A stretch of 22,604 nt of DNA, taken from positions 1 through 22,604 of the forward strand of contig CADBTX010000139.1 in NCBI GenBank assembly GCA_902797705.1, given 5' to 3'. The notes beneath the pieces are model-generated. The model was not told where the DNA came from, made no database searches, and was given only the letters and a program-made list of their open reading frames with translations. Source of the stretch: an uncultured Lachnospiraceae bacterium. Its GTDB lineage: Bacteria > Bacillota > Clostridia > Lachnospirales > Lachnospiraceae. Shown piece by piece: positions 2,175 to 18,474 of this stretch. Position 1 is the first letter of the stretch. Every line of letters begins with the position of its first letter. A program made the translations under genes and the position numbers.

Positions 2175-4376
2175 TTACTGTAACAGAGAAAGAATACCCT
2201 GATTGGATTGATTAGCCTGTGACAGCATTGCCTGTCCTGCCTGTTCTAGAATGCTTTCTTTTGAAAACCTCACCATCTCCTCCGCTATGTCGGTATCCCT
2301 GATAACAGATTCTGCATGCTGGGTATTTTCAATAGTATTATTCTGATGTTTTATTGTATGCTCTAAACGATTCTGCTGAGCACCTATCCTGCTGCGGATA
2401 TCGTTCAGTTTAAGAAGTGCCGGTTCCATCCTGCCTATTGCATCCCGAGCTCCGTCGATAGATGAAACATCCAGATCATAAATCCCTAATATTTTTGTAT
2501 TCATTTGTCCAATTTCAAGATAGATTCCATTATCGTCTGAATTATCACACCCCGTCTGGATCCACCATTTTTTATATTCGTTCGTATTTGTAGAAGAATT
2601 CCCTGGCCCATTCTCAGGTGTTGAGCCATAGCCATTATAAATCGTATAGCCATTTTCTTCTCTCACTGTTCCTCCAGATATATGTACTTCATCTCTGCTA
2701 CTTTTAAATTTTGAACTAAACTCCGCATGTGCCCCATGACCTGACCCGATATTTTCTGCTAAAAGACCGCCGCCTTTTGCCATTACCTCATCCCCGCCAG
2801 TTATATTTATATCGTAAGCGAGTCCTCCTGTTCCTCCTCCGATACCAGAGGCCAAATACCCCCCATTCGCAATCACCTTTTGTCCACCGGATATCGTGAT
2901 ATGGGAAGCACCTCCACCCGATCCACCACCAATCCCGGCGCCATAATCACCGCCTGTCGCAGTAACGTTGCCTCCGGATATTGTGATATTAGATGCCCCT
3001 CTACCATACCCACCTCCTATTCCAGCAGCTTTATACCCGCCTTGTGCTATAATTGTTCCTCCGGATATCATAATATCGCTCACAGATGTTTCTTCACAAC
3101 CTCCAATTCCGGCAGAATAATAACCACCTTGCGCCTCAACTGTTCCTCCGGATATCGTGATATTCGATACTGCCGTGCCTTGTCCGCCTCCTATCCCGGG
3201 GCCTACTGTACCGATTGCCTTTACAGATCCTCCGGATATCGTGATATGAGATGCATCGCCAAAACCTCCACCTCCGATTCCAACAAATCCTGACGCAATA
3301 ATACTTCCTCCGGATATCGTGATATGAGATGCGTCACCATTATCTCCGCTTCCAATCCCAGCGGTTTGCCCTAACACCGTATGTCCATTAACTCGTCCAC
3401 TGCCGCCTCCTACAGCACTTATGATACCGCCATCAATGACGATATTAGAAGTTGAAAAATTGTACCCACTCCCAATCCCGGCAGCACCATATCCTCCCTG
3501 TACAGTCAAATTACCTGTTCCATTAATAGTAAGAGACCCTGTTACGCCGTTTTTCTGAATTCCGGCAAATTCTCCTCCACTGTGCAGCATGTTATCGCCA
3601 TCCAGTGTAATAGTTACATTTCCCGTTGAGTTATCAGCAATCTTCAGCGCCGCTGTCGATGCATTAGAGATATCTACATTACTGAGGATAATGCGTGCAT
3701 TTACTCCATCGGCAATTTCTATACAATCAGTTGTCCACCCATCCAAGACATTAGAGATTTTCAGTGCGGCATCCGTTTTTATGGTAAGCAACCTATTCAC
3801 CGAATCAAAGTCATAATCCCTGCCCTGAGTTCCACCCGTCACCTTAAAATCTCCCACTATGACAGGCGTCCCCGAGGGTTCCGTGACCACCCGGGTCTTT
3901 CCCGCTCCCGACGCACCTCCTGATCCATCCATCCCAGATGAAGACAGCCCTCTCGCAAATAATAACTCTTCATTAAATTTTGTAGTTGTTGATACTCTGT
4001 CGATCTCTTTAAGTATCTCATTTATCTCCGATTGAATATCCTGTCTGTCGGAGGGACTGTTTGTTCCGTTTGCAGCCTTCACCGAAAGCTCTGTGATTCG
4101 ATGAAGCATATCCTGAACTTCTGCCAAAGCACCATCCGCAGTCTGACACATAGAAACGCCGTCCTGCGCATTGTCTGTTCCCTGCGTAAGACCGCGTATC
4201 TGTTTCCTCATCTTTTCAGAAATAGAAAGACCTGCCGCATCATCTGCAGCACGGTTTATCTTATATCCTGATGAAAGCTTTTCTGTACTTTTTCCTTTTC
4301 TTTTACTCACTATACCGAGCTGACGATTCGAACTCATTCCCGGCAAATTGTGAGCAACTATGCTCATCCCCGACAT
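2175..4376 (-). CDS. flagellin with large glycine-rich beta-helix-type repeat domain
   Basis: 733 residues, against roughly 270-500 for ordinary flagellins. Residues 1-143 are a flagellin D0/D1 N-terminus (KSTEKLSSGYKINRAADDAA, DRQDIQSEINEILKEIDRVS). Residues from about 602 are the C-terminus (RIGAQQNRLEHTIKHQNN, ending NQSNQGILSLLQ). Between them a Gly/Ser linker (145-160) leads to a segment (KVTGGTQG, YDFDSVNRLLTIKT, STGNVTITLDGDN, 175-295) resembling modules of PF14262/Cthe_2159-type carbohydrate-binding beta-helix proteins. About eight repeats follow (295-550). The middle would be exposed on the filament surface. The ATG at 4376 has AGGG at 4384-4387, inside the stop codon region of the recombinase, giving translational coupling; ATG 4367 is the alternative matching the usual flagellin start. 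There are four cysteines (77, 218, 427, 610), uncommon for flagellin. No other flagellar gene is in the window. Confidence 0.9.
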   Translation of the reverse strand: MSGMSIVAHNLPGMSSNRQLGIVSKRKGKSTEKLSSGYKINRAADDAAGLSISEKMRKQIRGLTQGTDNAQDGVSMCQTADGALAEVQDMLHRITELSVKAANGTNSPSDRQDIQSEINEILKEIDRVSTTTKFNEELLFARGLSSSGMDGSGGASGAGKTRVVTEPSGTPVIVGDFKVTGGTQGRDYDFDSVNRLLTIKTDAALKISNVLDGWTTDCIEIADGVNARIILSNVDISNASTAALKIADNSTGNVTITLDGDNMLHSGGEFAGIQKNGVTGSLTINGTGNLTVQGGYGAAGIGSGYNFSTSNIVIDGGIISAVGGGSGRVNGHTVLGQTAGIGSGDNGDASHITISGGSIIASGFVGIGGGGFGDASHITISGGSVKAIGTVGPGIGGGQGTAVSNITISGGTVEAQGGYYSAGIGGCEETSVSDIMISGGTIIAQGGYKAAGIGGGYGRGASNITISGGNVTATGGDYGAGIGGGSGGGASHITISGGQKVIANGGYLASGIGGGTGGLAYDINITGGDEVMAKGGGLLAENIGSGHGAHAEFSSKFKSSRDEVHISGGTVREENGYTIYNGYGSTPENGPGNSSTNTNEYKKWWIQTGCDNSDDNGIYLEIGQMNTKILGIYDLDVSSIDGARDAIGRMEPALLKLNDIRSRIGAQQNRLEHTIKHQNNTIENTQHAESVIRDTDIAEEMVRFSKESILEQAGQAMLSQANQSNQGILSLLQ
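2729..3490 (-). repeat. tandem coding repeats, about eight units of 26-29 residues
   Basis: Each unit has the pattern GIGGG-x(5-6)-S-x-ITISGG-x-V-x-A-x-GG. The six central units share a near-identical DNA core. ATATCGTGATAT occurs exactly at 2891, 3152, 3236 and 3314, with one-base and two-base variants at 2978 and 3065. Start-to-start spacings are 87, 87, 87, 84 and 78 bp, always whole codons. The core is itself an inverted repeat, ATATC-GT-GATAT. The outermost units are more diverged, and one contains an extra insertion (residues 324-338). Confidence 0.85.
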
Positions 4377-4383
4377 TTATAAT

Positions 4384-4387
4384 CCCT
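4384..4387 (-). promoter_or_regulatory. flagellin ribosome binding site coupled to recombinase stop
   Basis: The minus strand reads TAGGG then ATTATAA then ATG. The AGGG overlaps the TAG stop codon of the recombinase (4386-4388), 7 nt before the flagellin ATG at 4376, so ribosomes ending on the recombinase can feed flagellin translation. Confidence 0.6.
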
Positions 4388-5036
4388 AACAATCCTGAAA
4401 AGTGTACTTTTTCGGATTTTTATCCAAATTCGGAAATGTGGCTTTTCCGAATTTTTCAGCTTTACTGAAGAAGGTTGATCTCGGCATCCCGCACTCTGAG
4501 GCGGCTTGGTTTATGGTGATCTTCTTCATTTTCCAACACTGGTAGACATCATAGAAATTATCAGGCAGCGGTTTTAGCGGTCTTCCGAACCGGACACCTT
4601 TCGCTTTTGCTGCCGCAATACCCTCTGCCTGTCTCTGACGGATGTTGATCCGTTCATTCTCCGCCACGAATGAGAGTAATGCCAGAACAATATCGCTGAT
4701 AAAGGTTCCCAGCAGATTCTTCTCTCTTCTAGTGTCCAGCAATGGCATGTCGACAACCACGATATCCGAACACTTATCCTTCGTAATGATCTTCCATTGT
4801 TCCTGAATATCCCGGTAATTTCTCCCCAATCGGTCTATGCTCTTGATATACAGGACATCACCGGCCTTTATTCTCCGCATCAGCTTTTTATACTGCGGCC
4901 GGTTGAAATCCTTACCTGACTGTCTGTCCACAAAAACATTTTTCTCCGGCACATTCATTTCCTTCATCGTGATCAGCTGCCTGTCCTCGTTTTGATCCCT
5001 GCTGCTGACACGGCAGTATCCCCAAATATTCCCCAT
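4386..5036 (-). CDS. serine recombinase, DNA invertase/resolvase family
   Basis: 216 residues, the usual size of small serine recombinases. The N-terminus WGYCRVSSRDQNEDRQ carries the catalytic serine (RVSS) and the conserved DQN. The core continues with VFVDRQSGKDFNRPQYKKLM and DVLYIKSIDRLGRNYRDI, matching the R-LGR catalytic arginines. The long E helix (LLSFVAENERINIRQRQAEG) leads to the linker KAKGVRFGRP and a C-terminal helix-turn-helix (ITINQAASECGMPRSTFFSKA). The start ATG 5036 is chosen because GGAAGGAG sits 4-5 nt upstream. An in-frame GTG/TTG-type extension to 5117 would translate through a strong hairpin and has no family counterpart. The gene is followed by the flagellin with a 9-bp gap, an arrangement reminiscent of Hin-controlled flagellar variation, although no invertible segment is evident here. 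It could equally be a domesticated resolvase from a mobile element. Confidence 0.9.
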   Translation of the reverse strand: MGNIWGYCRVSSRDQNEDRQLITMKEMNVPEKNVFVDRQSGKDFNRPQYKKLMRRIKAGDVLYIKSIDRLGRNYRDIQEQWKIITKDKCSDIVVVDMPLLDTRREKNLLGTFISDIVLALLSFVAENERINIRQRQAEGIAAAKAKGVRFGRPLKPLPDNFYDVYQCWKMKKITINQAASECGMPRSTFFSKAEKFGKATFPNLDKNPKKYTFQDC

Positions 5037-5040
5037 TGTT

Positions 5041-5048
5041 CTCCTTCC
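5041..5048 (-). promoter_or_regulatory. strong ribosome binding site of the recombinase
   Basis: The minus strand reads GGAAGGAG-AACA-ATG. This fixes the recombinase start at 5036 rather than at the upstream in-frame codons. Confidence 0.75.
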
Positions 5049-5050
5049 AT

Positions 5051-5080
5051 CAAAACAGGGACATTTCTGTCCCTGCTTTG
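5051..5080. promoter_or_regulatory. 13-bp imperfect inverted repeat upstream of the recombinase
   Basis: CAAAACAGGGACA (5051-5063) and TGTCCCTGCTTTG (5068-5080) are inverted copies with one mismatch around TTTC. On the minus-strand transcript this is a stable hairpin ending about 3 nt before the ribosome binding site. It could be a translation attenuator, an operator, a recombination site for the adjacent recombinase, or a small palindromic repeat. I found no second copy in the window. Confidence 0.7.
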
Positions 5081-5117
5081 CACTAAAATATCTTGTTTCC
5101 GGTTTCTGTTTTTTCAT

Positions 5118-5651
5118 TTTAATTCAGCACCCTCATTCTGAGTCTTGCCGCCTCCCTCTGCTTCTCCTACAACCTTCTCGGCTTACAATAACTAACGTCA
5201 GATTTCGGCATTTCATATGTCCTGTCGATATCTGTACAGATTACCTGCCAAAAGGTATCCGGATACCCGTTAACTAACGTTTCAGCTTTCTTCATAAACT
5301 GCAGGATCCCCGGTATGAGCAGGAAGGAAATCCCATCCCGCACGAATTGAATTCCTACAGAATAAGGACACCAACACCCTTGAAGAAGGGATCAATACCA
5401 ATAATCTCTGGATGAATACTGTGAGAAAAGAACACAAACGAAAAGAAGGATGTCTCAACATCTGACAGGCTCTTCATCGAGGAAAAACCCAGAAAAATCT
5501 GTCACTTACTGAAAAAACCATAACAGAACCCGCCTCTGAAAACGCTGCAGTACTAATTTGTCATTCCGACCTGATGGGATCGAATTCAAGGAAAAGTAAA
5601 TCGGCACTTTTTCATTAAAAAGCCCCTCATTTGTGATTGAATCAGGTTGAC
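5118..5651. other. 534-bp region without a confident gene; possible gene remnants
   Basis: Two consecutive short minus-strand frames are open here: 5355-5477 (40 codons, hydrophobic, contains IHPEIIGIDPFF) and 5167-5343 (58 codons). They could be pieces of one gene broken by a frameshift, reading towards the recombinase. On the plus strand a short hydrophilic frame follows ATG 5317, but it stops after 11 codons unless a frameshift is allowed. Just after the HD-GYP stop codon the minus strand carries a 10-base direct repeat (CCTGAGTCAA / CCTGATTCAA), then CTTTTT-AAT-GAAAAAG, which could fold but has no T-tail. I see no tRNA or other RNA gene. Confidence 0.5.
5167..5343 (-). CDS. possible small ORF or gene remnant (58 aa)
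   Basis: The GTG at 5343 is preceded by AGGA with a 9-nt gap. The peptide starts VRDGISFLLIPGILQFMKKA and ends YEMPKSDVSYCKPRRL before TAG. A shorter version begins at ATG 5295 (42 aa). The composition looks protein-like (hydrophobic helix, then a polar tail), but I recognise no family. The frame is open a further 15 codons upstream of the GTG, so this may be the tail of a decayed gene rather than an intact one. It ends 131 bp before the recombinase start in the same direction and could be co-transcribed with it. Confidence 0.3.
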   Translation of the reverse strand: MRDGISFLLIPGILQFMKKAETLVNGYPDTFWQVICTDIDRTYEMPKSDVSYCKPRRL

Positions 5652-6548
5652 TCAGGTGGTAAATTCCACGTGCCGGGGGATGCATTGCTGCAGTTCCTCC
5701 TTCGGGATAGAGAGAAAGATCTCCATGAGTTCCTTATCCAGCTGTGTTCCCGCCACCTCTGTCATGATCCTGACGGCGTCCTCATGGGTCTTCGGCTCCT
5801 TATAGGACCTTCTCATAGTTATGGCGGAGTAGGTATCCGCTATGGCGATTATCCTTGCCGGAACCGGGATATCCTCAGCCTTTACACTGTAATACCCCTT
5901 ACCGTCTATACGCTCATGGTGATAGAGGATCCAGTCGGAAATGGATTCGAAGGTGGCGAGGGGTTTTAAGATCTTTACCCCCACCTCGGGATGTGAACGC
6001 ATGATCTTCCATTCATCCTCCGTAAGCTTAGCCGGCTTATTTAATATGGCTTCCGGAACACCCAGCTTTCCAACATCATGCATAAGCGCGGCGTATTCAA
6101 GGCTGACAGGATTGATATCCTTTTTTATATGGTTGGGAAGATGCCTGTAAAACAGCATGGTAAGGCTCTGCACATGAAGGCTGTGGCCGTTGAGATTCGG
6201 GTCTCTGGCGTCGATGACACCCACCAGCACTTCCGCTATATCAATACTTCTCTTCTTCACCGTATCCAGAAGCCCGAACATGACTGTCAGCACTATCATG
6301 ACAAAAACACTTCCCCAGAAGAGGATCATCGCCATCATCATGTCAGGCTTTGAAAAGATCGCAATAAATAGATACCCGATCAGGAAAAAAATGAGAAGCA
6401 CAAGAGCCAGGGTCTTTCCGAACCTGTCCCTGCGGCTGCCCTGAGACAATACATCCCGAGTGGTCAAAAGAAAGTAGATGTATCTCAATATGTTGGTTAT
6501 CATCAGCAAAGCGCCGAGTATTATCACTGTCGATATCAGAATCTTCAC
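5652..6548 (-). CDS. membrane HD-GYP domain protein, probable c-di-GMP phosphodiesterase
   Basis: 298 residues. Hydrophobic segments at about 3-28, 46-65 and 71-95 anchor it in the membrane; the cytosolic HD-GYP domain fills the rest. Visible motifs are HDVGKLGVPEAILNKP (H157, D158, K161), SHPEVGVKIL (H186), YHHERIDGKGY (H210, H211, E212, D215) and IAIADTYSAITM. The signature GYP tripeptide reads GYY (218-220), a departure from consensus, although the metal-ligand positions are kept. HD-GYP enzymes hydrolyse c-di-GMP, a regulator that often balances motility against exopolysaccharide. The GTG start overlaps the stop of the preceding gene (GTGA), with AGGGGG about 8 nt upstream. It is the last gene of the polysaccharide run, so the likely role is local feedback on surface-glycan production; that is inference. 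Confidence 0.85.
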   Translation of the reverse strand: MKILISTVIILGALLMITNILRYIYFLLTTRDVLSQGSRRDRFGKTLALVLLIFFLIGYLFIAIFSKPDMMMAMILFWGSVFVMIVLTVMFGLLDTVKKRSIDIAEVLVGVIDARDPNLNGHSLHVQSLTMLFYRHLPNHIKKDINPVSLEYAALMHDVGKLGVPEAILNKPAKLTEDEWKIMRSHPEVGVKILKPLATFESISDWILYHHERIDGKGYYSVKAEDIPVPARIIAIADTYSAITMRRSYKEPKTHEDAVRIMTEVAGTQLDKELMEIFLSIPKEELQQCIPRHVEFTT

Positions 6549-7231
6549 TCCGTCAACCCCCTAAATGTGTCCTCACTCATGAAATAGAGATCCTGTTCAT
6601 CATTCCAAACCGCCACAAATACCTCCGCGGAAGCAGCATCGTCCAGGTTTACATAAATATTAGGCTGCATGTCCTTATCCCTTTCCTTTTTCTGCTTCTC
6701 GGCAAAGGCGTTGTAATACCAGGAATACCAGAAGGCCGACGCCTGCTGGACCTTCTCGGTGTTAAGGGCAAAGGAATACCGGAGCATGTCATTTGCCTCC
6801 CCAATGTCACGGAAATCGTTTTTCTTATCCCCCAGCAGTTCTTCGGTCTCATCTCCTGCAGGCAGGCTCTCATCCACCAGCACCTGATCCGCATACAGAC
6901 CGAACCACCGGGTATAGTCATTATCTATGAGGTAGTGTTTGTCAAAGGGATTCCCCTCTTCCTCATCCCTGCCGTACGTGCCGTATTCGTCATAGGTCTT
7001 TATCTCCCTCGCCACCTTTACGGTCTTTCCCCTGACGATATTCCGTAAAAGAAGATCCGGATATTCCTTTGTTTCCGGGTAGGTATCGGCGTACATGGTC
7101 TGGGTGCTGCTTTTAGTCAGATCCACGTCCTTAGAAAGAGCATTGCCGAGAACGGCAAAATTTCCCAGGGAAAATACAAACGTCAGCAGCAGGATCACAT
7201 ATATTAATCTGGCATTTTTTTCAGGCTTCAC
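6545..7231 (-). CDS. membrane-anchored extracytoplasmic protein, unknown function
   Basis: 228 residues with no family I can name. A short basic N-terminus is followed by one hydrophobic segment (RLIYVILLLTFVFSLGNF), so the remainder should lie outside the membrane. That part is rich in acidic and aromatic residues (YTRWFGLYADQVLVDE, FWYSWYYNAFAEKQKKERD) and ends in a compact strand-like stretch (EVFVAVWNDEQDLYFMSEDTF). The start GTG 7231 is chosen because AGAGGA lies exactly 7 nt upstream. An in-frame TTG at 7264 would need a 44-bp overlap with the flippase and has no binding site. The gene overlaps the flippase stop by 11 bp and the HD-GYP start by 4 bp, so the three are probably translationally coupled. 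A role in export or modification of the glycan is plausible but unproven. Confidence 0.7.
   Translation of the reverse strand: MKPEKNARLIYVILLLTFVFSLGNFAVLGNALSKDVDLTKSSTQTMYADTYPETKEYPDLLLRNIVRGKTVKVAREIKTYDEYGTYGRDEEEGNPFDKHYLIDNDYTRWFGLYADQVLVDESLPAGDETEELLGDKKNDFRDIGEANDMLRYSFALNTEKVQQASAFWYSWYYNAFAEKQKKERDKDMQPNIYVNLDDAASAEVFVAVWNDEQDLYFMSEDTFRGLTE
6647..6656 (+). repeat. GTTTACATAA word, copy 1
   Basis: Exact copy, preceded by G. It lies in the unknown membrane protein gene, where the coding strand reads TAT GTA AAC (YVN). Confidence 0.7.
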
Positions 7232-8696
7232 TCTTATTTCCTCTGAAAAAACCTTTGATGTCAAAATCCCGTATCATTTCCAGGATCTTCTTAAGGCTGT
7301 CCCTCTCTATCAGCATGAATACCAGGATCAAAACAGCTCCAAGGATATAGCTTATGACATTCTTCCCGGAAAGGGAGGAAAAAGCCGCGTATCCGAAGAG
7401 CAGGACAGCATCTATGAAGGTACGTCCCCTGTCGTAACCCACAGGGTAGAATCTTTCCGAAAAGACGGAACCCACTAAAAAGTACATTATATACGATACT
7501 CCGGTGGTAAGGGCAGCCCCCGTTCCTCCCAGCACCGGCACCAGTAGGTAATTTCCGGCTATATTGACTATTATAGCCGCAAGGCTTGCAATATTGAGAT
7601 ATATATTCTTCTTTTTGAACCTGATGCCCTGCACCGTTATCTCAAACATCATGGCAAATATAGGCATAAGGGTCAGGAACGGGATTATCCTGTCGGCCCC
7701 TCTGTAATTCTTTCCGAGAAGAAGGACGATGACATTCCTGAATAATATCATCCCCGTTGCTCCAAGCATACAGAGAAAACGCACCATGTCAAATGCCTTT
7801 CTGAAAAAGGCCGGAGCCCCCTCATCCCCGCTCTCGTATTTTTCCATGGCCACCGGTGACCAGTAGGCCAGGAAGGTATTCTTGAAAGTAAGGAGCAGCA
7901 CGATTATCTTCATTGCCGCGCTGTATACTCCAAGCTCGTGGAAGTCCGCCAGAGTCTTAAGAGCGATCTTATCACAGGAGGACAGCAGCCACTCCATTAA
8001 GAGGATCAGTATAAATGGCAGCCCGTAGGTTATGAGATCCTTCTCCGGAATGCTCTTCTCCCTTGCCCCGGTCATATCCTCTCCTGAGGGTTCCTTCTTC
8101 CCTAAAACACTGTATCTCACAGCCAGGAAAAGTGTCGTGGAAAACCAGGACAGGGTCATGGCGTAGAGCACCACCCTGAAATCATTTCCGAAGAGTGCAA
8201 AGAAAACAAAGATCAGGACTATGTTTATCAGTTTCTGTGCAATATTAATATTGCTGTACAGCCGGCCATTCTGCTGCATCCTGACATCCAGAAAGAGGAA
8301 GCGTTCAAACACTGAAACAACGGTATAGGCCGCAACCATAATAGTTATGTCAACCGAGCTCCTGTCAAAGAGCCATCCGTTTATGGTGGTTGACATAAAA
8401 CAATAAAGGACTATAAGTCCGGTCACAAGGAAAAAAGGCGGGGTGAGACACTGACCCATGAGACGCCTTCTGTTCACTCCTGCCCTGTAATAATAGCGGA
8501 TATAGGACTGATCCAGCCCCAGCACCGCAAAGATGTATATGCAGGAAACAGCGGCTTCAAACATTCCGGTCCTTCCGTATTCTTCGGTTGACATAATTCT
8601 GGTGACCAGAGGAGTCTGAATAAAGCCCAGCAGAAGAACTATGAAATTTCCGTAAAAGTAGCTGAGGAAGCCTCCTTTTTTATGTAAACTGCTCAT
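7221..8696 (-). CDS. polysaccharide flippase, Wzx/MATE-like (second of two)
   Basis: 491 residues, mostly hydrophobic, with about 12-14 predicted membrane spans. The N-terminus GFLSYFYGNFIVLLLGFIQT followed by PLVTRIMSTEEYGRTGMFEA is the classic opening of the polysaccharide-transporter (Wzx/PST) family. Mid-sequence GLPFILILLMEWLLSSCDK and FHELGVYSAAMKI also match. The family moves undecaprenyl-linked repeat units from the cytoplasmic to the outer face. The ATG overlaps the upstream glycosyltransferase stop by 17 bp, with GGAG 4 nt before it. It is one of two flippases in the locus and pairs with the unknown membrane protein and HD-GYP genes downstream, suggesting it may serve a different substrate from the first. 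Substrate cannot be read from sequence. Confidence 0.9.
   Translation of the reverse strand: MSSLHKKGGFLSYFYGNFIVLLLGFIQTPLVTRIMSTEEYGRTGMFEAAVSCIYIFAVLGLDQSYIRYYYRAGVNRRRLMGQCLTPPFFLVTGLIVLYCFMSTTINGWLFDRSSVDITIMVAAYTVVSVFERFLFLDVRMQQNGRLYSNINIAQKLINIVLIFVFFALFGNDFRVVLYAMTLSWFSTTLFLAVRYSVLGKKEPSGEDMTGAREKSIPEKDLITYGLPFILILLMEWLLSSCDKIALKTLADFHELGVYSAAMKIIVLLLTFKNTFLAYWSPVAMEKYESGDEGAPAFFRKAFDMVRFLCMLGATGMILFRNVIVLLLGKNYRGADRIIPFLTLMPIFAMMFEITVQGIRFKKKNIYLNIASLAAIIVNIAGNYLLVPVLGGTGAALTTGVSYIMYFLVGSVFSERFYPVGYDRGRTFIDAVLLFGYAAFSSLSGKNVISYILGAVLILVFMLIERDSLKKILEMIRDFDIKGFFRGNKSEA
8680..8689 (-). repeat. GTTTACATAA word, copy 2
   Basis: Exact copy on the minus strand. It contains the TAA stop of the GT4 gene and codons 3-5 of the overlapping flippase. 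Confidence 0.7.
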
Positions 8697-9786
8697 ATAT
8701 CTCCAGATGTTTCCTCACATAGGAATCAGAAGTGTACAGATCATGGTATCTATTATAAAAATAATCCTGCTCCTCCTCCATGAATCTCTCGTCCTCTCTT
8801 AAACGCCGTGCATAAGAGCAGAGCACCCCGAGATCATCCATGGAATATAGATTTTCCTTTCTGCCCATAACCTCCGGAAGGCCCCCGGCGTCGGTTGACA
8901 TAACACAGCACCTTCTGGACATGGCTTCCACCGCCGCTTTTCCGAAGGATTCAAATACACTGGTCATGATGAAGAGATCTACTCCGTAGTAAAAGTCACT
9001 CATCTCTTCCTGACTCAGATCCTCTCTGTAGACCAGTCTTTCGGGACCAATTATATCCTCAATTTTCTTTTTTAGACTATCCGCGAATTCCCTGTCTCCT
9101 CTTTCGTACAAGGAAAGCACCAGACGGACTTCAAAATCCCCGATCTCATCATTAAGGGCTTTAACAATGACGGGAACCCGCTCCCAGGCCTTTTCCACAC
9201 AGACACGGCCCGCAAAGCCCACGGAAAGCCTTCCTCCCCTTTTTCTTTTCCCGGCATCATAATCTTCAAAGATACGGCTTATGGTGTTTGGTATGGTGAA
9301 TACCGGCCCAAAGGGAGTTTCATTACTCCACAGCGCCCGGTTCTTATCCGTGGTGGTTATTATACAGGAGGCGGTTTTCAGAACAGGATCCATAAAAAAA
9401 CGGGATCTCCTTCTGTAGCCGAAGAGCATCCCCCTGTCGGTATAGATATGCTTTATGTCCCTGAATCTCCCCTGAATAAAACCATAGGTGATGAGGGACT
9501 CCGACATCTCAATATGTATGAGCGCCGGTCTCTCCTCAGCGATAAATTTCCTGAAAGCCCCGATCCGCTTCAGAAGGTTTGGAAAACGTTTTTCGCCCAT
9601 GGGATAGGTAAGCACCCTGAAGGGATAATCCGAGGTCTTCCGGTTTAATAACTCCGGACAGATGACCAGGGGTTCAAAACCGTATTCAGTTTCTGCTTTA
9701 AGAGCCCCGGCTATCATCTCCGTGGAGAGCTGGGCCCCTCCCGGAAGATCCAGGGGATATTCCAGGAGATAAACGATCTTCTTCAT
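8680..9786 (-). CDS. glycosyltransferase family 4
   Basis: 368 residues in a GT-B layout. The N-terminal domain opens KIVYLLEYPLDLPGGAQLST, containing the glycine-rich acceptor-side loop. The C-terminal domain has SVGFAGRVCVEKAWERVP, then DFYYGVDLFIMTSVFESFGK and AAVEAMSRRCCVMSTDAGG, which form the E-x7-E-type nucleotide-sugar site of GT4 (retaining). It should act in the cytoplasm, extending the lipid-linked repeat unit. The start ATG 9786 overlaps the previous stop as ATGA; the in-frame TTG at 9795 is less likely. Its stop codon (TTT ACA TAA) lies inside one copy of the recurrent GTTTACATAA word. Donor sugar and linkage are not predictable. Confidence 0.88.
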   Translation of the reverse strand: MKKIVYLLEYPLDLPGGAQLSTEMIAGALKAETEYGFEPLVICPELLNRKTSDYPFRVLTYPMGEKRFPNLLKRIGAFRKFIAEERPALIHIEMSESLITYGFIQGRFRDIKHIYTDRGMLFGYRRRSRFFMDPVLKTASCIITTTDKNRALWSNETPFGPVFTIPNTISRIFEDYDAGKRKRGGRLSVGFAGRVCVEKAWERVPVIVKALNDEIGDFEVRLVLSLYERGDREFADSLKKKIEDIIGPERLVYREDLSQEEMSDFYYGVDLFIMTSVFESFGKAAVEAMSRRCCVMSTDAGGLPEVMGRKENLYSMDDLGVLCSYARRLREDERFMEEEQDYFYNRYHDLYTSDSYVRKHLEIYEQFT

Positions 9787-10943
9787 TTGAACCAATTCCC
9801 GTACAGGTACTCACACCTGGAAAGGGGGCCCCTTTCATACACCTTCATGTTCCCGGAAAGCATGCTGGCGGAAAGCTCTATCACCCTTTCTGCCGCAGTC
9901 TCCGGATTCCAGTATTTCTGCATATTGTCGAAGGCCGCCCGTCCGTATTCCCGGATAAGCTTCCTGTCCGTCAACAGCTTATTCATCTTTTCTTCCAGGC
10001 CGGCCAGGCTTCCGCTCTTAAACACAAAGCCGTTTACTCCGTCCTCTATGAGAAAGGGGGTGGCTCCGGCCGCATGGCTCGCTATGACGGCGCAGCCCGC
10101 GGAAAGGGCTTCATAGATCACAGAACCCCATCCCTCAAGGAAATTACTGGTCATAACGAATATGTCCGCCTTCTCCATTTCCCCCCTGGTCTCCTCGGGG
10201 GAGAGAAAGCCCGTATATTCCGTAATGTCGTCGAGCCCGAGGGAAGATGACAGCGATCTAAGGCGCTTCTCCTCTTCTCCACCTCCCACCATCACAAGGG
10301 AAAAGTCAAATCCTTCTTTTCTGCAACGGGCTGCGGCCTTAAGAAAAAGATCCGCCTTCTTCAGCTTCAGGAAACGTCCTGCCCAAAGTATCCTCACAGG
10401 ATGATTTCCGTCTTTAAGTTTACATAACTCATCCCATCCCTTCTTTTCTCTTTCCGGGAAATAGCCGAACTTATAGCATTTCCCTATGTAGGAGTGAAGG
10501 AACCTGTAGTCGGACGCACAATAGGCGCTGGCGGCCAGTATATGTATATTCTTATTTCTGTTCCTGAAATGATTGTGGTAGAACTTTTTTGCAAGTCTCG
10601 GGATAAGGACCTTTATCCTTCCTTCCTTCAGAGGCCGCTCGGAATACCTGAAGATAAGCCTGTTTTCATCAAGCCTTTTTTCAATATATCTTTCAGGTGC
10701 GGTGCCAAAGATCACGACATCGCTCTCCCCGGCGAGAGAAACCGCTTTCCTTTCGTTCTCCTCCGATACATAGGACTTTAGTACATAGGAAGGGGCAGGA
10801 CGTGACCAGCCCATCTTTGAACGGAATTCCTCCATGGGCTCGGTCTCCACAAAGGTAAAATCCTCCCCTATCCTCTCATAAAACGCATTGCAGAGTGCTT
10901 CCTGATGATGATTGAAATAATTAGAAAAAAAAGTGATCTTCAC
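9783..10943 (-). CDS. glycosyltransferase family 4
   Basis: 386 residues, GT-B type. The N-terminus KITFFSNYFNHHQEALCNAF is typical of one GT4 clade in capsule and exopolysaccharide loci. The nucleotide-sugar domain shows ILWAGRFLKLKKADLFLKAA, then FSLVMVGGGEEEKRL, YTGFLSPEETRGEMEKADIF and EGWGSVIYEALSAGCAVIAS, with the expected pair of acidic residues. The GTG start has AAGGA 8 nt upstream. It follows the GT2 gene with an 11-bp gap and overlaps the next GT4 by 4 bp, so the three transferases are probably one translational unit building successive linkages. Linkage and donor are unknown. Confidence 0.88.
   Translation of the reverse strand: MKITFFSNYFNHHQEALCNAFYERIGEDFTFVETEPMEEFRSKMGWSRPAPSYVLKSYVSEENERKAVSLAGESDVVIFGTAPERYIEKRLDENRLIFRYSERPLKEGRIKVLIPRLAKKFYHNHFRNRNKNIHILAASAYCASDYRFLHSYIGKCYKFGYFPEREKKGWDELCKLKDGNHPVRILWAGRFLKLKKADLFLKAAARCRKEGFDFSLVMVGGGEEEKRLRSLSSSLGLDDITEYTGFLSPEETRGEMEKADIFVMTSNFLEGWGSVIYEALSAGCAVIASHAAGATPFLIEDGVNGFVFKSGSLAGLEEKMNKLLTDRKLIREYGRAAFDNMQKYWNPETAAERVIELSASMLSGNMKVYERGPLSRCEYLYGNWFK
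10418..10427 (+). repeat. GTTTACATAA word, copy 3
   Basis: Exact copy, preceded by A, within the GT4 gene. The coding strand reads TTA TGT AAA (LCK), a different codon phase from copy 1. Confidence 0.7.
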
Positions 10944-10954
10944 CGGTTTTTTCC

Positions 10955-11689
10955 TTACGCTAAAACAAACTTGATGAGTTCAAAGGCCACGCACTCAAAG
11001 ATATAGAACCTGCTGAAGCCGTTTTCCCTGTAGATCCTGTACCTTCTCTTTATCCTGGGGATTATCTCCCGTGCAGGGATCCGGTTACTGACCCCTCCCA
11101 TGGTAAAATCCGCCAGAACTTTATCCACCACTGCGATCTTGTACCCGGCCTTCTTTACCCTGAAATAAAGGTCCATATCATCGCTGATATCCCTGCAGCG
11201 GAAGCGTATCTTCTCATACACTTTTGAAGATACAAACTGGGTGGGATGGTTCCAGTCCCGGCTGGTGGTGTATTTTCTGAGCCGTGCCTTTTTTACAAAG
11301 GATCTGCCGTTCGTCATATGCATGCGGATATTAGCAAAGGCCAGGTCGCAGCCGGTCTTTTCAAAGGTGTCCTGCATGACCTCCACGGCTTCACTCTCAT
11401 AATAGTCGTCGCTGTTTATAATCCCTATGATGTCACCCCGGGCCTTATCTATCCCCTTATTCATGGCATCATAGATCCCCTCATCCTTTTCGGAAAAGAT
11501 CCTAAGCTCTGTTCCCTTTTCATTGAAGCTCTTCTTAAAGGATTCCGCGATCTCCAGAGTCCTGTCCGTGCTGAGTCCGTCGATGATTATATATTCATAA
11601 GGCATAAGAGTCTGCCCTAAAACAGACTCCATGGTTCTTCTTATGGTCTTTTCGGAATTAAAGCATACGGTGATTATGGTAGTTAACAT
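10955..11689 (-). CDS. glycosyltransferase family 2
   Basis: 244 residues, GT-A fold. The opening TTIITVCFNSEKTIRRTMES and YIIIDGLSTDRTLEIAE form the nucleotide-binding half. IIGIINSDDYYESEAVEV carries the metal-binding DD motif, and the region around RDWNHPTQFVSSKVYEKI with DISDDMDLYFRVKKAGY is the usual acceptor-side and catalytic part. This pattern matches WcaA/WcaE-like inverting transferases in Gram-positive and Gram-negative polysaccharide loci. The ATG at 11689 lies 14 bp after the sugar-transferase stop; the ribosome binding site is poor (AGGA about 12 nt away). It likely adds one of the first sugars after the initiating phosphosugar, but the order of action is inferred only from position. 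Confidence 0.88.
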   Translation of the reverse strand: MLTTIITVCFNSEKTIRRTMESVLGQTLMPYEYIIIDGLSTDRTLEIAESFKKSFNEKGTELRIFSEKDEGIYDAMNKGIDKARGDIIGIINSDDYYESEAVEVMQDTFEKTGCDLAFANIRMHMTNGRSFVKKARLRKYTTSRDWNHPTQFVSSKVYEKIRFRCRDISDDMDLYFRVKKAGYKIAVVDKVLADFTMGGVSNRIPAREIIPRIKRRYRIYRENGFSRFYIFECVAFELIKFVLA

Positions 11690-11703
11690 AACTCTGCCGA
11701 TCC

Positions 11704-13062
11704 TCAGAACCCTTCCGTGGAATCATTTGCATTAAAGAGCACCAGGAAGGTCTGGAAAAGGAGCTTGATATCCAGCATTATACTGAATCTCTCAATGTAC
11801 AGTAAATCCAGTATCAGCTTGTCTCTGGATGAGGTATTATATTTCCCCATCACCTGGGCAAGGCCCGTAAGTCCAGCTTTCATTCTCAGGCGGTAACGAA
11901 ATTCGGGCATTTCATTCTCGTACTCGTTTACGTTTTCCAGCATTTCAGGCCTCGGCCCCACCAGAGACATCTCCCCCTTTATGATGTTAATTAGCTGGGG
12001 AAGCTCGTCTATCCTGTATTTCCGGAGTATCTTCCCGGCAGGGGTGATGCGGTCGTCCTCCTTGCTCACTGATACATTTCCTGAATCCACCTTCATGGTC
12101 CGGAATTTGATTATCTGAAAAACCCTGCCCCGTATGGTGGCTCTTTTCTGTCTGAAGAAGACCGGACCTCCGTCACCGGCCTTTATCATCACCGCCGCCA
12201 CTAAAAAGAGTGGTGAGGTAAGGATAAGGAGCAAAGCGGATATCCCTATATCCGAGAGCCGCTTTATGACCCTCTGCTCAAAGGTCATCTTTCCCGAATA
12301 GTGGAAAAGGAAGGGCATATCTCCCATCATCCTCTCTTCGGCGGTCATTTCAACGATATCCGAGATATCGGGGTTCAGGGACATGTGAACATTATGCTTA
12401 TAACAATAGTTAACAAGCTCTGCCCTGTCCCCCTGGGGTATATCATAAAAGAACACCATTCCGGCATCCCTTATCTTCTCCTTTACATGCTCATCATCGT
12501 ATTTCAGGGCTTCCGCAGAGGAAAAGCGGTGCCTGAAGCTCTCCACCATGCTCTTTACCCGCTCTCCGTCCTCCGTGGTGCCTGCGATGACCAGGGCCTT
12601 TACCGGAGGCTCCACCCAGTTATGGAAATGGGAGGCCGCCACAGTCATAAGCCACACAAACAGGGCATTTAGGAGCAGGGAAAGGATAAAATACCCGATG
12701 GATCGGAATCTGAACTTAAGGCCGTTGGCCTCATTCACGTTCATTATCAGAAAAACCGCATAGGTAAAAAAGGATGAAAAGAAAAGGGACAGCTCCATCC
12801 CCTGAAGTATAAGCCGTCTGTGTCTCCGTCCCGCATCAAGCCCCCCGTAGATACCGGTAAAAAACAGAAGAGACATGAAAAACATAAGGGTCATGATAAC
12901 AGACGTTCTCGAAAGAACCCTGACCTGACGGTTCTCTATCCCGAGAAGAGAAAACAATATAAAAAAGCATCCGAGATACAGAATGATCTTGATAAAAAAC
13001 TCTATGCTGTTGCTGAATTTCCTGCAAATACCCATCATGTCAAAAATATCCCGATCCCTCAC
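11704..13062 (-). CDS. polyprenyl-phosphate sugar transferase (initiating glycosylphosphotransferase)
   Basis: 452 residues. Four hydrophobic segments within the first 145 residues are followed by a nucleotide-binding-like region (about 150-245) and a C-terminal bacterial sugar transferase domain (from about 262). The diagnostic motifs are all present: VIKRLSDIGISALLLILTSP, FFRQKRATIRGRVFQIIKFR with TM following, KYRIDELPQLINIIKGEMSL, VGPRPEM, and MKAGLTGLAQVMGKYN. This family moves a sugar-1-phosphate onto undecaprenyl phosphate, starting the repeat unit at the inner membrane face. The size and topology resemble WbaP/WcaJ-type enzymes rather than the short catalytic-core type. The start GTG 13062 is used; ATG 13038 and 13035 are alternatives. 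It lies 6 bp after the preceding GT4. Confidence 0.92.
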   Translation of the reverse strand: MRDRDIFDMMGICRKFSNSIEFFIKIILYLGCFFILFSLLGIENRQVRVLSRTSVIMTLMFFMSLLFFTGIYGGLDAGRRHRRLILQGMELSLFFSSFFTYAVFLIMNVNEANGLKFRFRSIGYFILSLLLNALFVWLMTVAASHFHNWVEPPVKALVIAGTTEDGERVKSMVESFRHRFSSAEALKYDDEHVKEKIRDAGMVFFYDIPQGDRAELVNYCYKHNVHMSLNPDISDIVEMTAEERMMGDMPFLFHYSGKMTFEQRVIKRLSDIGISALLLILTSPLFLVAAVMIKAGDGGPVFFRQKRATIRGRVFQIIKFRTMKVDSGNVSVSKEDDRITPAGKILRKYRIDELPQLINIIKGEMSLVGPRPEMLENVNEYENEMPEFRYRLRMKAGLTGLAQVMGKYNTSSRDKLILDLLYIERFSIMLDIKLLFQTFLVLFNANDSTEGF

Positions 13063-13068
13063 CGGAGA

Positions 13069-14292
13069 TCATAAGCCGTAAACCTCTTCAATATACTGAC
13101 GGAATCTTTCCTCAGATCCGTAAAGCCCGGCTCTTTCGATACAGGCCTTTTCCAGCCTGTCTTTATCCCCGTTCAAAAGCTCCTTCACAGATTCGATAAC
13201 TCCCGTTACATCCCCTATTTCCCTAATCCTTCCCGTTTCCTCAGTGACAGATTCCGGGCTTCCTCCGGCCCTGTATGTAATAACAGGTGTTCCGCAAGCC
13301 ATGGCTTCCAGGTTTGTGGTAGGAAAGGTGTCCTCATAGGTTAGGTTTACATAAATATCCGAAGCAGAATACCACTCCGCCATTTCCTTCAGGGAATCCG
13401 TCTTTATCACAGGGATGATATTCGGATACTTTGAAACCCTGTCTGCCTGCTTTCTGCTGAGTCCGATCATGGCGATCCTGACTCCCTCTCCCAGCTCTTC
13501 CGACAGTTTCAGAAAGTCCTCCAAGCCCTTCCTCTCTCTCCAGGGATTTGCCACTCCGAGGAGCAGCGGCGCCTTTCCCACGCCGTATCTCTCCCTAATA
13601 TCCGAAGGCTGCTTCTTAAAACTCCCCGTATCTATTCCCGTCGGCACGCATTTCACGGGATACTCCTTCAAAAAGGACTCCCGGACCCTTGAACCCAGCC
13701 ACTCTGAAGGAGTCACAATGGTAAGATTCCTGACCCCGGTAAAATCCGACTTCTTTTCCCTGTAGTTCTCCCTTGAAGCGTCCATAAATAAGGACCTGGG
13801 ATACTGATCCTTTTCCGGGCAGTGGTGACATTCCTCTTTCCACCTCATGCATCCCCTGTATTCAAAGTGGACGCAGTGACCGGTGAAACTCCAGCAGTCG
13901 TGGAGAGTCCATATCACCCGGTGACTGTCAGCTTTTGAAAAATCATTTTTAAGAAAAGAAAAAAGCAGTTTGTAGTTTACATAATATCCATGGACATTAT
14001 GCATGTGTATGATATCCGGATCAAACTCCCTTATCTTATCTATGAGTCCCCTCGTGGCTACGGAAGAATAAAGGCCGTGCCTGTCGGTGATCCGGCTCAG
14101 AGCTCCGTGGAGATAGACCGACATATCACTTCCTATCCGGTATGAATCGTGTCCCTCCGGGGGATCCCATCTCCCGTAGGCGACAAGGGTTTCGGAGCCT
14201 TTGGCCTTTACGGCGGAGGAGAGACCCGTAACGATCCGTCCCACGCTGCCCTTACCCGCAACAGTATTGATAAAAAGTACCTTAGGGCTCAT
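13069..14292 (-). CDS. glycosyltransferase family 4, WcaC-like
   Basis: 407 residues, GT-B. The start KVLFINTVAGKGSVGRIVTG, the IIHMHNVHGYYVNYKLLF stretch and the cysteine-rich LHDCWSFTGHCVHFEYRGC with HHCPEKDQYP are the pattern of a well-known GT4 subgroup seen in colanic-acid-like and exopolysaccharide loci. The nucleotide-sugar half has LLGVANPWRERKGLEDFLKL, ADIYVNLTYEDTFPTTNLEA and MACGTPVITYRAGG, with the expected acidic residue pair. The ATG overlaps the upstream stop (ATGA) and has AAGGA 6 nt before it. The clustered cysteines may bind a metal or be structural. The gene carries two copies of the recurrent 10-base word (13345 and 13975). Donor and acceptor unknown. Confidence 0.88.
   Translation of the reverse strand: MSPKVLFINTVAGKGSVGRIVTGLSSAVKAKGSETLVAYGRWDPPEGHDSYRIGSDMSVYLHGALSRITDRHGLYSSVATRGLIDKIREFDPDIIHMHNVHGYYVNYKLLFSFLKNDFSKADSHRVIWTLHDCWSFTGHCVHFEYRGCMRWKEECHHCPEKDQYPRSLFMDASRENYREKKSDFTGVRNLTIVTPSEWLGSRVRESFLKEYPVKCVPTGIDTGSFKKQPSDIRERYGVGKAPLLLGVANPWRERKGLEDFLKLSEELGEGVRIAMIGLSRKQADRVSKYPNIIPVIKTDSLKEMAEWYSASDIYVNLTYEDTFPTTNLEAMACGTPVITYRAGGSPESVTEETGRIREIGDVTGVIESVKELLNGDKDRLEKACIERAGLYGSEERFRQYIEEVYGL
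13345..13354 (+). repeat. GTTTACATAA word, copy 4
   Basis: Exact copy, preceded by G, in the WcaC-like GT4 gene. Coding strand TAT GTA AAC (YVN). Confidence 0.7.
13975..13984 (+). repeat. GTTTACATAA word, copy 5
   Basis: Exact copy, preceded by A, 630 bp from copy 4 in the same gene. Coding strand TAT GTA AAC (YVN). Confidence 0.7.
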
Positions 14293-15929
14293 GAGCGTTC
14301 CTTTAATATGATGTCGATAACCCTCTTCTGACCCATCCGGAATTCATTGGTAAGCTCTATATTCCTCATTTCCTTCCGGACATTGGGAGTCTCGATGAGC
14401 CAGCGCATGGTCTGTATCACCGTTTCATCATCCGTGCGCTTTCCGATACCAAGATTGATAAAGCCATTCTGTATACCGGCAAAAACATGCTGGGCTTCTC
14501 TTTCATTCTGCGCCAGTACTATTGCGGGAACCCCCATGCTCGCAAGCTCATAGATGGTACGGCCCTGGCTGGTCACCGCCAGATCCGCCTTTTTCATATA
14601 AAGAGAAACACGCTTTACATCATTGTGTACAAAAATATTCTTCTCCGGGATATCCTCCATCAGGTCCTTTTTCTCATAGGCAAAGCCCGTGATAAAATGG
14701 AATTCCGTTTCCGGCGTGATCTCATGAAGCTTTTCACAGATACTGTAGAGCCTTCCCGTAAGGTCCGAAGGATCGGCGCCGCCGAACATTATCATCACAT
14801 TTCTGCATTCGGGAGAAAAATCCTTTGGATTCTCCTCCAGGAACTCATCCCTGATAAAGAAATAATCACTTCCCTCATAGACATTTCCCGGCTTGTCAGG
14901 ATGATTCTCGTAAAGCGCGTTGATCACTGCGTCCGCAAGATACGCTCCCGGTCCCACATCCTCAAAATTTACAATCCGCTTCGCGTATTTTCTCTCCAGT
15001 TTAATGGTATCCTCGTCTGTATCCAGTATATCGTTCACCACGATATCCGGCTTCCACCGGGCCAGGACCTTTTCATAACTATCGTTATCCTCTATCACCT
15101 CAAAGGGAAAGAAGGAACTTTTAAGCTTTTCTATTCCCATTTCGCTTTTGCTGTCTGTGACAAACAATACCTCGTGGCCGATAAGCTTATAAGCCAGGGA
15201 AAGACACCTGTAGATATGGCCCATGCCCAGTTTTCTCTGGCCCACGGCCCTAAATAACACACGTTTCCTTTTTAAGATGGCCTCTGCTTCTATCCAGTCA
15301 GAATAGGTATCTATGTCGATGGCTTCCTCCGGAGAGGTCTCATATACGGAAACATTTTCCCCTATGCGGCCTTTTTTTGTCACAAGCTCCCGCTTTGTTA
15401 TGAGAAAAGCCCCTGTTTCCAGGTAATTCGGCGGCAGGAACTGGGAATTAAGGCGCTCCTCATAGTTCTTTACAATCTTTCCGTCCCTCTTTGTCCAGGA
15501 GAGATGTGGTTTATTGACCACGCTGATAACGGTATCGTATCCCTCCTTCTCAAAATAGCCTATTGCCTTTTTTAAGGTATCAAGACAAAGGGTGGGAGAA
15601 GTGGCCTGCATGGTGATCACGGTGTCATAGCTTTTCCCGTGCCGCTCCTCCATTTGGATGAGAGCGTCATATATCACAGGATCCAGGGTGACGCTGTCTC
15701 CGGACAGAGCCTCTCCTCTCATGACGATCTCAGCGCCGTGATCCGCGGCTATGCCGGAAAGCTCTTCATCATCCGTGGAAACAGCCACATCCACGTCCAG
15801 ATCCTTTTTTAAGGAAAGGGCATTTGTGACCGAATACATGATAAGAGGCCGTCCGTTCATGAGACGCACGTTCTTCCTCGGTATCCTTTTGGAACCACCC
15901 CGGGCGGGGATTATTATCAGTATTTTCAT
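14289..15929 (-). CDS. CMP-nonulosonate cytidylyltransferase fused to PseG/SpsG-like domain
   Basis: 546 residues made of two proteins usually encoded separately. Residues 1 to about 222 are an acylneuraminate cytidylyltransferase (NeuA/PseF/SpsF type): IPARGGSKRIPRKNV binds CTP, MQATSP and AIDIDTYSDW follow, the latter with metal-binding aspartates. From 223 on is a PseG/SpsG-like GT-B domain: LFRAVGQRKLGMGHIYRCLS contains the GxGH motif (H238, the catalytic position in PseG), followed by VMIMFGGADPSDLTGR and SQGRTIYELASMGVPAIVLA. PseG removes UDP from a diacetamido sugar, the step before NeuB/PseI condensation; the cytidylyltransferase acts after it. B. subtilis spsF and spsG are adjacent separate genes. 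The exact sugar (pseudaminic, legionaminic or another) is not determined. Start ATG is 6 bp after the flippase gene. Confidence 0.88.
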   Translation of the reverse strand: MKILIIIPARGGSKRIPRKNVRLMNGRPLIMYSVTNALSLKKDLDVDVAVSTDDEELSGIAADHGAEIVMRGEALSGDSVTLDPVIYDALIQMEERHGKSYDTVITMQATSPTLCLDTLKKAIGYFEKEGYDTVISVVNKPHLSWTKRDGKIVKNYEERLNSQFLPPNYLETGAFLITKRELVTKKGRIGENVSVYETSPEEAIDIDTYSDWIEAEAILKRKRVLFRAVGQRKLGMGHIYRCLSLAYKLIGHEVLFVTDSKSEMGIEKLKSSFFPFEVIEDNDSYEKVLARWKPDIVVNDILDTDEDTIKLERKYAKRIVNFEDVGPGAYLADAVINALYENHPDKPGNVYEGSDYFFIRDEFLEENPKDFSPECRNVMIMFGGADPSDLTGRLYSICEKLHEITPETEFHFITGFAYEKKDLMEDIPEKNIFVHNDVKRVSLYMKKADLAVTSQGRTIYELASMGVPAIVLAQNEREAQHVFAGIQNGFINLGIGKRTDDETVIQTMRWLIETPNVRKEMRNIELTNEFRMGQKRVIDIILKERS

Positions 15930-15935
15930 TCGTTT

Positions 15936-17387
15936 CTACCCTTTCAGCTTTTTTCGGATAATACCCGTAAAGATGATTATATCATTCTTTCTTACTATTG
16001 CCAAAACCAGCATAACAACCGCTATCAGTAAATACCTGATCACCGGATGGGGATAGAGATATGCGGTGAGTATGCCTGTCAGGCAGGTAAGCGTCAGCAT
16101 AAGAAAATAGAGTCCGTCGTGATACAGCTTCAGCTTCAGGACATGCCTTGTGGCGATGTAGTGAAGTATCATCAGGAAAAAATATCCGGCAAGGGTGGTA
16201 TAGGCCGCCGCTATATACCCGAACCTGGGGATAAAATATGCGTTAAGACCGATGTTCACCGCCGCGGCGATACAGGAATTAAAGGCAATGAGGAAGGTCT
16301 TTTTGTGGAAGAGTTCCGCATTGACGTAGTTTGTATAAAAATACTGGCAGAGGGTTCCGAGGGCCACCGGGGGAACCACCCACATGCTGTCCCAGTAACT
16401 TTTCGCAAAGAGAAGCTTCACCGCCAGGGGCGCCGCTGCTATGAAGACAAGGGTAAGTACACAGCCGTAAAACATCATGATCCTGTTCTTTTCCCTTATG
16501 CCCTCCACATCCGAAGAATAGAGATGCTCATTGAAGTAGGGAAGCCAGGCCTGTCCCACCGCGTTTGTGACAAACATAAGGAGGGTACCTATGGTATAGC
16601 CTGAGGTATAGAGTCCCACCTCGGAAAAGCCGTAGTACTCCGATATCATGGAGACATCGATCCTGGAAAGGAGTATCAGCGCCAGCCCGTGGGGTATCAT
16701 GGGTATACCGATCTTAAGGGCATAAGACCAGTATTCCCTGTTAAACAAAACCTTTCCCTTTCCAACCAGGTTTACATAACACCAAACCGCTACGGCACCG
16801 CTGGGTATAACGGTTCCCAATATCTTTAAGAAGCCCTTTTCTCCGGGAGCAAAGAGCAGGAGCAGCACCGTTATAAGTACGGTAGCAACCGTTATTATCA
16901 CTGATATGGCGATGTTCTCCTTATATCTGTACTCAAAACGGTATTTGTACTGCATATAGTCAATAGATGGAAAGACCGTGAGATACGCGAATAATATGAA
17001 GATCACAAGTCTCGGGAACTTAAAGAGCAGTCCCCCGGAGGGAAAAAATATCATCACCAGTATCAGGATGATCATGGAAAAACCGCTGGATAAGCACTGT
17101 ATGGAGGACATATATGCGTCGAAGTCCTCCGTGAAATCCAGCTTCGCCCTTCCCACGCTGTAGATGAGGCAAAGACCGCAGACCACCGAAAATATACTGA
17201 CATAATTGTTGAAATTATTGGCGTAACCGGTTTCGGCGGTGGTGAGCAGCCTGGTGTAGATGGGGGCCGTGATTATCCCCACGGCACGAATAAGAACATT
17301 TGATATTATATACCAGAAACCGGAACGGAGCGCTATTTCTCCGTCCCCTTCCCTGGTCTGTTTATTATCGTCCTTTACCTTGTCCAT
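15936..17387 (-). CDS. polysaccharide flippase, Wzx/MATE-like (first of two)
   Basis: 483 residues with about 12-14 hydrophobic spans. After a polar 20-residue start it reads SGFWYIISNVLIRAVGIITA followed by PIYTRLLTTAETGYANNFNN, the Wzx/PST family opening. Later GIPMIPHGLALILLSRIDVS, FSEVGLYTSGYTIGTLL and AVGQAWLPYFNEHLY are the family's conserved middle. It should flip lipid-linked repeat units. GGAAGT precedes the ATG, which lies 8 bp after the neuB stop. Placed directly between the two nonulosonate genes, it is the better candidate for exporting the nonulosonate-containing unit. It shares the family pattern with the flippase at 7221 but is clearly a different sequence, so this is not a recent duplication. 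Confidence 0.9.
   Translation of the reverse strand: MDKVKDDNKQTREGDGEIALRSGFWYIISNVLIRAVGIITAPIYTRLLTTAETGYANNFNNYVSIFSVVCGLCLIYSVGRAKLDFTEDFDAYMSSIQCLSSGFSMIILILVMIFFPSGGLLFKFPRLVIFILFAYLTVFPSIDYMQYKYRFEYRYKENIAISVIITVATVLITVLLLLFAPGEKGFLKILGTVIPSGAVAVWCYVNLVGKGKVLFNREYWSYALKIGIPMIPHGLALILLSRIDVSMISEYYGFSEVGLYTSGYTIGTLLMFVTNAVGQAWLPYFNEHLYSSDVEGIREKNRIMMFYGCVLTLVFIAAAPLAVKLLFAKSYWDSMWVVPPVALGTLCQYFYTNYVNAELFHKKTFLIAFNSCIAAAVNIGLNAYFIPRFGYIAAAYTTLAGYFFLMILHYIATRHVLKLKLYHDGLYFLMLTLTCLTGILTAYLYPHPVIRYLLIAVVMLVLAIVRKNDIIIFTGIIRKKLKG
16770..16779 (+). repeat. GTTTACATAA word, copy 6
   Basis: Exact copy, preceded by G, in the first flippase gene. Coding strand TAT GTA AAC (YVN). Confidence 0.7.
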
Positions 17388-17395
17388 ACTTCCAT

Positions 17396-18469: not shown

Positions 18470-18474
18470 TTAAG

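Follow-up and report, generated by a model that had tools for sequence, protein, structure and literature searches.

A Lachnospiraceae flagellin with a beta-helix outer domain related to Cthe_2159

The window (the whole stretch of 22,604 nucleotides that was analysed) encodes a flagellin with a repetitive middle part, which raises the question of what this part is, where it came from and what it may do on a filament. Flagellins with foreign domains are known, and 61 domain types were reported in 2017 (PMC5595980); the ten most frequent inserted domains, as given in the available text of that report, include neither a beta-helix nor Cthe_2159. No paper on beta-helix flagellins was found in the freely available literature searched. 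In flagellinolysins, too, the variable region holds a foreign functional domain, and there is evidence that the domain alone was transferred; their insert is a metallopeptidase (PMC5595980, available text).

Gene and domain organization of the flagellin

2175..4376, minus strand: flagellin gene, 733 aa (ATG at 4376, stop codon at 2175-2177)
3954..4376, minus strand: N-terminal D0/D1 part, residues 1-141 (PF00669; model helices)
2772..3881, minus strand: beta-helix outer domain, about residues 166-535 (PF18889; AlphaFold2; Cthe_2159 match)
2178..2585, minus strand: C-terminal D1/D0 part, residues 598-733 (PF00700)

The flagellin reading frame was open for all 733 codons, and the coordinates 2175..4376 given in the earlier note were exact, with the gene on the minus strand. 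The Pfam scan showed PF00669 at residues 8-141 (1.3e-37; 129.4 bits vs. a curated cut-off of 26.6) and PF00700 at residues 651-732 (1.3e-21; 77.1 bits vs. 23). Both exceeded their curated cut-offs, confirming the earlier reading of the termini as ordinary flagellin D0/D1. In the full-chain scan the middle matched PF18889 (Beta_helix_3) in seven stretches (7.4e-21; 74.2 bits vs. a cut-off of 27), rising to 5e-26 and eight stretches with residues 160-600 scanned alone. The flagellinolysin model NF033876 (NCBIfam) stayed below its cut-off (49.5 bits vs. 205), and its best stretch covered only residues 585-664. A Butyrivibrio flagellin (P0123; L004:4752-6668) with an HEMTH (HExxH) motif in its middle was noted by eye as flagellinolysin-like.

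The outer domain began with an N-terminal cap region (about residues 173-300), followed by repeat coils. The coil motif [G/N]IG[G/S/C] occurred nine times in residues 300-542, with spacings of 40, 26, 28, 29, 29, 29, 30, and 31, and the repeat unit was about 29 residues. A search for tandem repeats at the DNA level found none in the flagellin gene at the score applied, which lends no support to recent slippage.

Predicted structure and relation to Cthe_2159

The AlphaFold2 model had a pLDDT of 91-98 over most of residues 170-500; the high-confidence beta part covered about residues 166-535, and pLDDT was below 50 at residues 143-163 and 562-599. Modelled alone, the module had a pTM of 0.87. 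Helices of the N-terminal part were placed at residues 11-35, 45-102, and 108-131, and the D0/D1 ends were predicted to have a helical fold resembling solved filament subunits. Structure prediction, which had been proposed as a check, thus gave a beta-helix in the middle and helical D0/D1 ends.

In VIA-align, Cthe_2159 of Clostridium thermocellum (PF14262; PDB 4peu, 4phb) ranked first for two models, with a Z of 21.5 vs. 18.9, an rmsd of 2.4 vs. at least 3.5, and an identity of 26% vs. 16% or less for other beta-helices. The match spanned flagellin residues 166-445, with 220-223 residues aligned at an rmsd of 2.4 (identity 26-27%), and this alignment of models indicates that the module shares the beta-helix fold of Cthe_2159. 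However, Cthe_2159 is no flagellin, and the further repeat coils (445 to about 535 in the model) were present in the window protein only. Foldseek with the module returned no PDB match at E<=0.001, and 4phb ranked only 36th (E 0.66).

At the sequence level, PF14262 had no match reported at E<=10 in the full chain or in residues 160-600 alone, and it was rejected as the direct family of the window flagellin. A PDB sequence search with the middle alone or with profile A3, which includes flagellins and ubiquitin-bearing proteins that filled its PDB match list, returned no Cthe_2159 match at E<=10. The Pfam model of Cthe_2159 was matched by sister flagellins, though not by the window protein: PF14262 was found at E<=0.01 in 4 of 35 beta-helix flagellins and in 2 of 30 secreted relatives. 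Flagellin P0156 matched it at residues 188-456 (profile 5-262 of 262; 38.2 bits vs. a cut-off of 25.8; 1.3e-9), and flagellin P0137 at residues 185-400 (7.1e-5; 22.6 bits, under the cut-off of 25.8). The cap regions of P0137 and the window flagellin matched with 87.8 bits, and the secreted protein P0145 matched PF14262 (2.3e-10) at residues 102-210, close to where it matches the window's cap. On the strength of P0156, P0137, and P0145, the module was placed in the Cthe_2159 superfamily through intermediates; it was not filed as a PF14262 member, since the model fails on the protein itself. The earlier note had claimed a repeat array with PF14262-like modules. The array stood (PF18889, nine coil motifs), while PF14262 did not hold as the Pfam family of this protein and drew its support from the fold and the sister flagellins.

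By these computations, the flagellin frame is intact and its outer domain has a beta-helix fold related to Cthe_2159.

Origin of the module

Residues 160-610 were matched at E<=0.001 by 6359 of the 7994 candidates scored, well above what chance would give. Besides the flagellin itself, the best matches were PF18889 proteins that are not flagellins, with P0002 at the top (51% identity across 76% of the middle). These secreted surface proteins (P0002, P0029, P0145; Oscillospiraceae, Lachnospiraceae, and others) had the same cap and repeat module; unlike the window protein, they were without flagellin ends, and several had dockerin, SLH, ubiquitin-like, fn3, or other domains instead, with dockerin in 3 of the 30 secreted relatives scanned. 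The earlier view that the module resembles those of surface proteins rather than flagellins was upheld by these best matches, but the insert is not unique, as 34 other flagellins had related inserts.

The flagellin ends gave a different set of relatives. When ranked by residues 1-165, only P0148 among the 119 other proteins listed had a PF18889 label, and the closest among the matches listed (P0159, P0166, P0219, P0189, and P0168; 80-82%) were all without PF18889. P0159, P0166, P0189, and P0168 were the nearest relatives of the N part (80-82%) and likewise of the C part (67-75%). Since these four nearest flagellins are common to both parts, an assembly chimera is not favoured. The middles of the eight relatives compared had no significant similarity to that of the window flagellin, and in those of the nearest D0/D1 relatives no further Pfam domain scored meaningfully. 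Among the 120 matches listed, no same-strain allele with a different middle was found above 82% identity.

The wider flagellin tree took in 87 of 90 flagellins, both ends being required. It needed seven label changes, at least three of them forced by starred branches, with long branches unsure. From this tree, after its inspection, 36 rows were chosen for a second tree, in which the window flagellin grouped with four non-helix flagellins (98/97) and then with eight (99/98), and nine beta-helix flagellins formed a separate group (99/96). Grouping of all ten beta-helix flagellins, a group named after the first tree was seen, was rejected (p-AU 0.00018). In the cap tree (141 of 175 stretches), which was poorly resolved, the window's cap lay outside the starred set holding 12 flagellin caps, and its nearest neighbour was the secreted, dockerin-bearing P0029 (81). 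These results showed that both flanks of the window flagellin derive from one flagellin lineage and that its module has an origin separate from the main group of beta-helix flagellins. Because frame and module have separate histories, the gene offers a clean case for studying the exchange of flagellin outer domains.

Distribution of beta-helix flagellins

Two profile-type searches, the module search across flagellins being run with the HMMER composition correction off, gave 35 flagellins with beta-helix inserts including that of the window, and 34 of the 35 matched PF18889 at E<=0.01. The search for further flagellins with the same insertion that the earlier note proposed was thus rewarded with 34 others.

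PF18889 was present in at least 49 of 397 genomes drawn from the same family, and the 29 PF18889 loci that were read in other genomes, over 2-3 kb each, had no flagellin motifs. A row of at least four PF18889 frames (821, 662, 624, and 676 aa) lay at 71-78 kb of contig C56 in genome G385 (L016). The 397 family genomes were also searched with P0053, most of them with only two scored candidates; among the matches listed, no other extended from the N end beyond residue 319 of P0053.

In its own assembly (80% complete, 355 contigs), no PF18889 gene and no full flagellin were found besides the window gene; a partial PF00669 match fell in a 249-aa frame (L002:172-921; first residues MDSISTLG) that was not a full flagellin. 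The flagellar export protein FlhA (two contig pieces) and the sigma-28 factor FliA were encoded in the same assembly, which speaks for the explanation preferred below. All 48 genomes of the genus matched the flagellin ends, with 2 to 20 matches each and open frames of 136 to 1058 aa among the matches listed.

Upstream recombinase and promoter

4386..5117, minus strand: serine recombinase gene, 243 aa (PF00239, 1.4e-25), directly upstream of the flagellin
4377..5700, minus strand: stretch without a sigma-28-type promoter by consensus scoring (best 9 of 14)

The recombinase gene ended 9 nt before the flagellin ATG. Block 4388-5049 shared 82.5% identity with a recombinase copy in another genome of the genus (G440) and 74.0% with the G426 copy, both with the same left edge, and homology to these dispersed copies stopped at window positions 4388-4391; no flagellin was found in the 6-9 kb around the two copies. 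Downstream of the flagellin, frame 1180-2082 was a weak match to an Rpn-type PD-(D/E)XK nuclease/putative transposase (PF12784, 27.3 bits vs. a cut-off of 27.4; TIGR01784, 41.4 of 52.1), so that the flagellin lies between two possibly mobile genes.

The sigma-28-type site in flagellins of relatives consisted of CTAAA, 15-16 nt, and GCCGATATA. Within 300 nt, 20 of 46 other flagellins scored 12-14 of 14, vs. 2 of 235 shuffles. The flagellins of L003, L005, L079, and L080 scored 12-14 close to the start; L003, the closest relative with upstream DNA compared (77% over D0/D1), had a site scoring 12. Upstream of the window flagellin the best scores were 8 of 14 within 300 nt and 9 within 1324 nt. 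A consensus scan of the whole window was uninformative (29 matches vs. 21 expected). The flagellin thus appears to have had its usual promoter displaced, or to have lost it, which is suggestive only, because 26 of the 46 compared flagellins likewise scored below 12.

A role of the recombinase as a dedicated flagellin switch was not supported, as no switch repeats were found at the window; 4300-5720 held a single weak 15-nt inverted-repeat pair (87%), and the Mpi model gave 43.4 bits vs. a cut-off of 272. Two of the five recombinase neighbourhoods compared (L074-L078) adjoined a flagellin, and those two had been chosen for that. In one of them (genome G425, L074:6204-7559), a relative of the recombinase preceded another large flagellin by about 490 nt, with a 99-nt direct repeat (two copies, 96%) at 6489-6693 between them.

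Proposed function and alternative explanations

The explanation preferred here is that this is a genuine flagellin whose outer domain was replaced by a glycan-binding beta-helix of the Cthe_2159 superfamily; as a whole it is given a probability of about 0.5. The variable outer domain of a Lachnospiraceae flagellin would have been replaced by a beta-helix taken from among the secreted surface proteins with PF18889. The subunit would be incorporated into filaments, probably alongside other flagellins, and the beta-helix would project from the filament surface as a rod that may bind plant pectin, cellulose-like glycans, or mucin. The result would be a many-copy, low-affinity adhesive coat.

Polysaccharide binding appears the likeliest role of the module by analogy with Cthe_2159, the SRRP region, and an alginate-binding flagellin homologue, and from the dockerins of the secreted relatives. 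Cthe_2159 binds cellulose and polygalacturonic acid (PMC6712302, available text). For the related SRRP binding region of Lactobacillus reuteri (PDB 5ny0; 16% identity to the module), binding to epithelial cells and to pectic acids has been reported; like beta-solenoid fibrillar adhesins, it is stalk-borne, unlike a filament subunit (PMC9210967, available text). The Sphingomonas flagellin homologue P5 is likewise of the flagellin type, and it binds alginate, which is an acidic polysaccharide, as does E. coli FliC in vitro; however, a beta-helix insert is not described for P5 in the available text of that source (PMC8286568). The composition of the middle (24% glycine, net charge -17, aromatics 22 of 436 residues) speaks somewhat against such a role, since acidic, aromatic-poor domains are not typical of proteins that bind anionic pectin or cellulose. 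The missing PF14262 match and the low Foldseek rank of 4phb also weigh against the preferred explanation.

The outer domain could instead be an interchangeable, ligand-free coat serving antigenic or phage-receptor diversity or filament mechanics, and evasion is a putative alternative role. The genus is rich in flagellin genes, with flagellin ends matched in all 48 genomes; no listed match but the window's own entered residues 303-580; and in the nearest D0/D1 relatives the middle neither resembles this one detectably nor matches any Pfam family at a meaningful score. Yet the module sequence does not drift freely: a carbohydrate-binding family is among its relatives, and it is common to secreted surface proteins, some with dockerins. 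A coat that binds no glycan is on the unlikely side. Far less probable is an enzymatic flagellin with the beta-helix as a polysaccharide lyase. Its fold is common to the polysaccharide lyases, epimerases, and polygalacturonases in the lower rows of the structural list, but those matches had an rmsd near 4 and an identity of 8-17%, and the closer Cthe_2159 is titled only lyase-like.

A different objection concerns expression. Insertion of a recombinase-bearing element may have cut the flagellin from its promoter, leaving a silent or dying gene whose protein is no longer abundant. The recombinase stop 9 nt before the ATG, the end of the dispersed homology at 4388-4391, and the score of 8-9 vs. 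12-14 in L003, L005, L079, and L080 point this way, as does L074, the other flagellin with a close recombinase relative upstream, which also lacked a sigma-28-type site. However, the frame is intact for 733 codons, the low scores of the 26 flagellins noted above mean that absence of the motif is no proof of silence, and read-through or another promoter type is possible; a silent or dying gene is conceivable but doubtful. The adjoining recombinase and the failure to find a sigma-28-type promoter in 1.3 kb upstream nevertheless speak against display from the gene as it stands. Under the preferred explanation of a glycan-binding outer domain, the gene in this genome could be silent, transcribed by read-through from the recombinase gene, or under some other control, since its normal promoter would have been displaced by that gene.

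Should the module bind glycans, these gut and rumen bacteria would have in their flagellum an adhesin of very high copy number and long reach, directed at plant fibre or mucus and gained through the exchange of a single ready-made domain. The module itself is a ready-made candidate binding domain. A broader and unlikely proposal is that several Clostridia lineages separately made their flagella polysaccharide-gripping by docking Cthe_2159-superfamily modules, traded with secreted or dockerin-bearing plant-fibre proteins, and that the filament would be the motile counterpart of the cellulosome binding machinery.

Surface-glycan cluster and other window features

Positions 7221-22582 on the minus strand held a surface-glycan cluster, with the following members.

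14289-15929, minus strand: cytidylyltransferase fused to a glycosyltransferase-28-like part
17396-18469, minus strand: NeuB-family synthase
18521-19612, minus strand: WbsX-type transferase
20981-22582, minus strand: sulfatase-family protein

The cluster product is possibly a nonulosonic acid that could also decorate flagella. The Maf flagellin glycosylation family PF01973 was absent from the 80%-complete assembly, a weak negative, as the control was also silent in flagellated bacteria. Flippase- and glycosyltransferase-like frames were also seen by eye in the cluster, and a 36-bp tandem repeat of 2.5 copies (20664-20752) lay inside a 439-aa membrane-protein-like frame (19609-20928).
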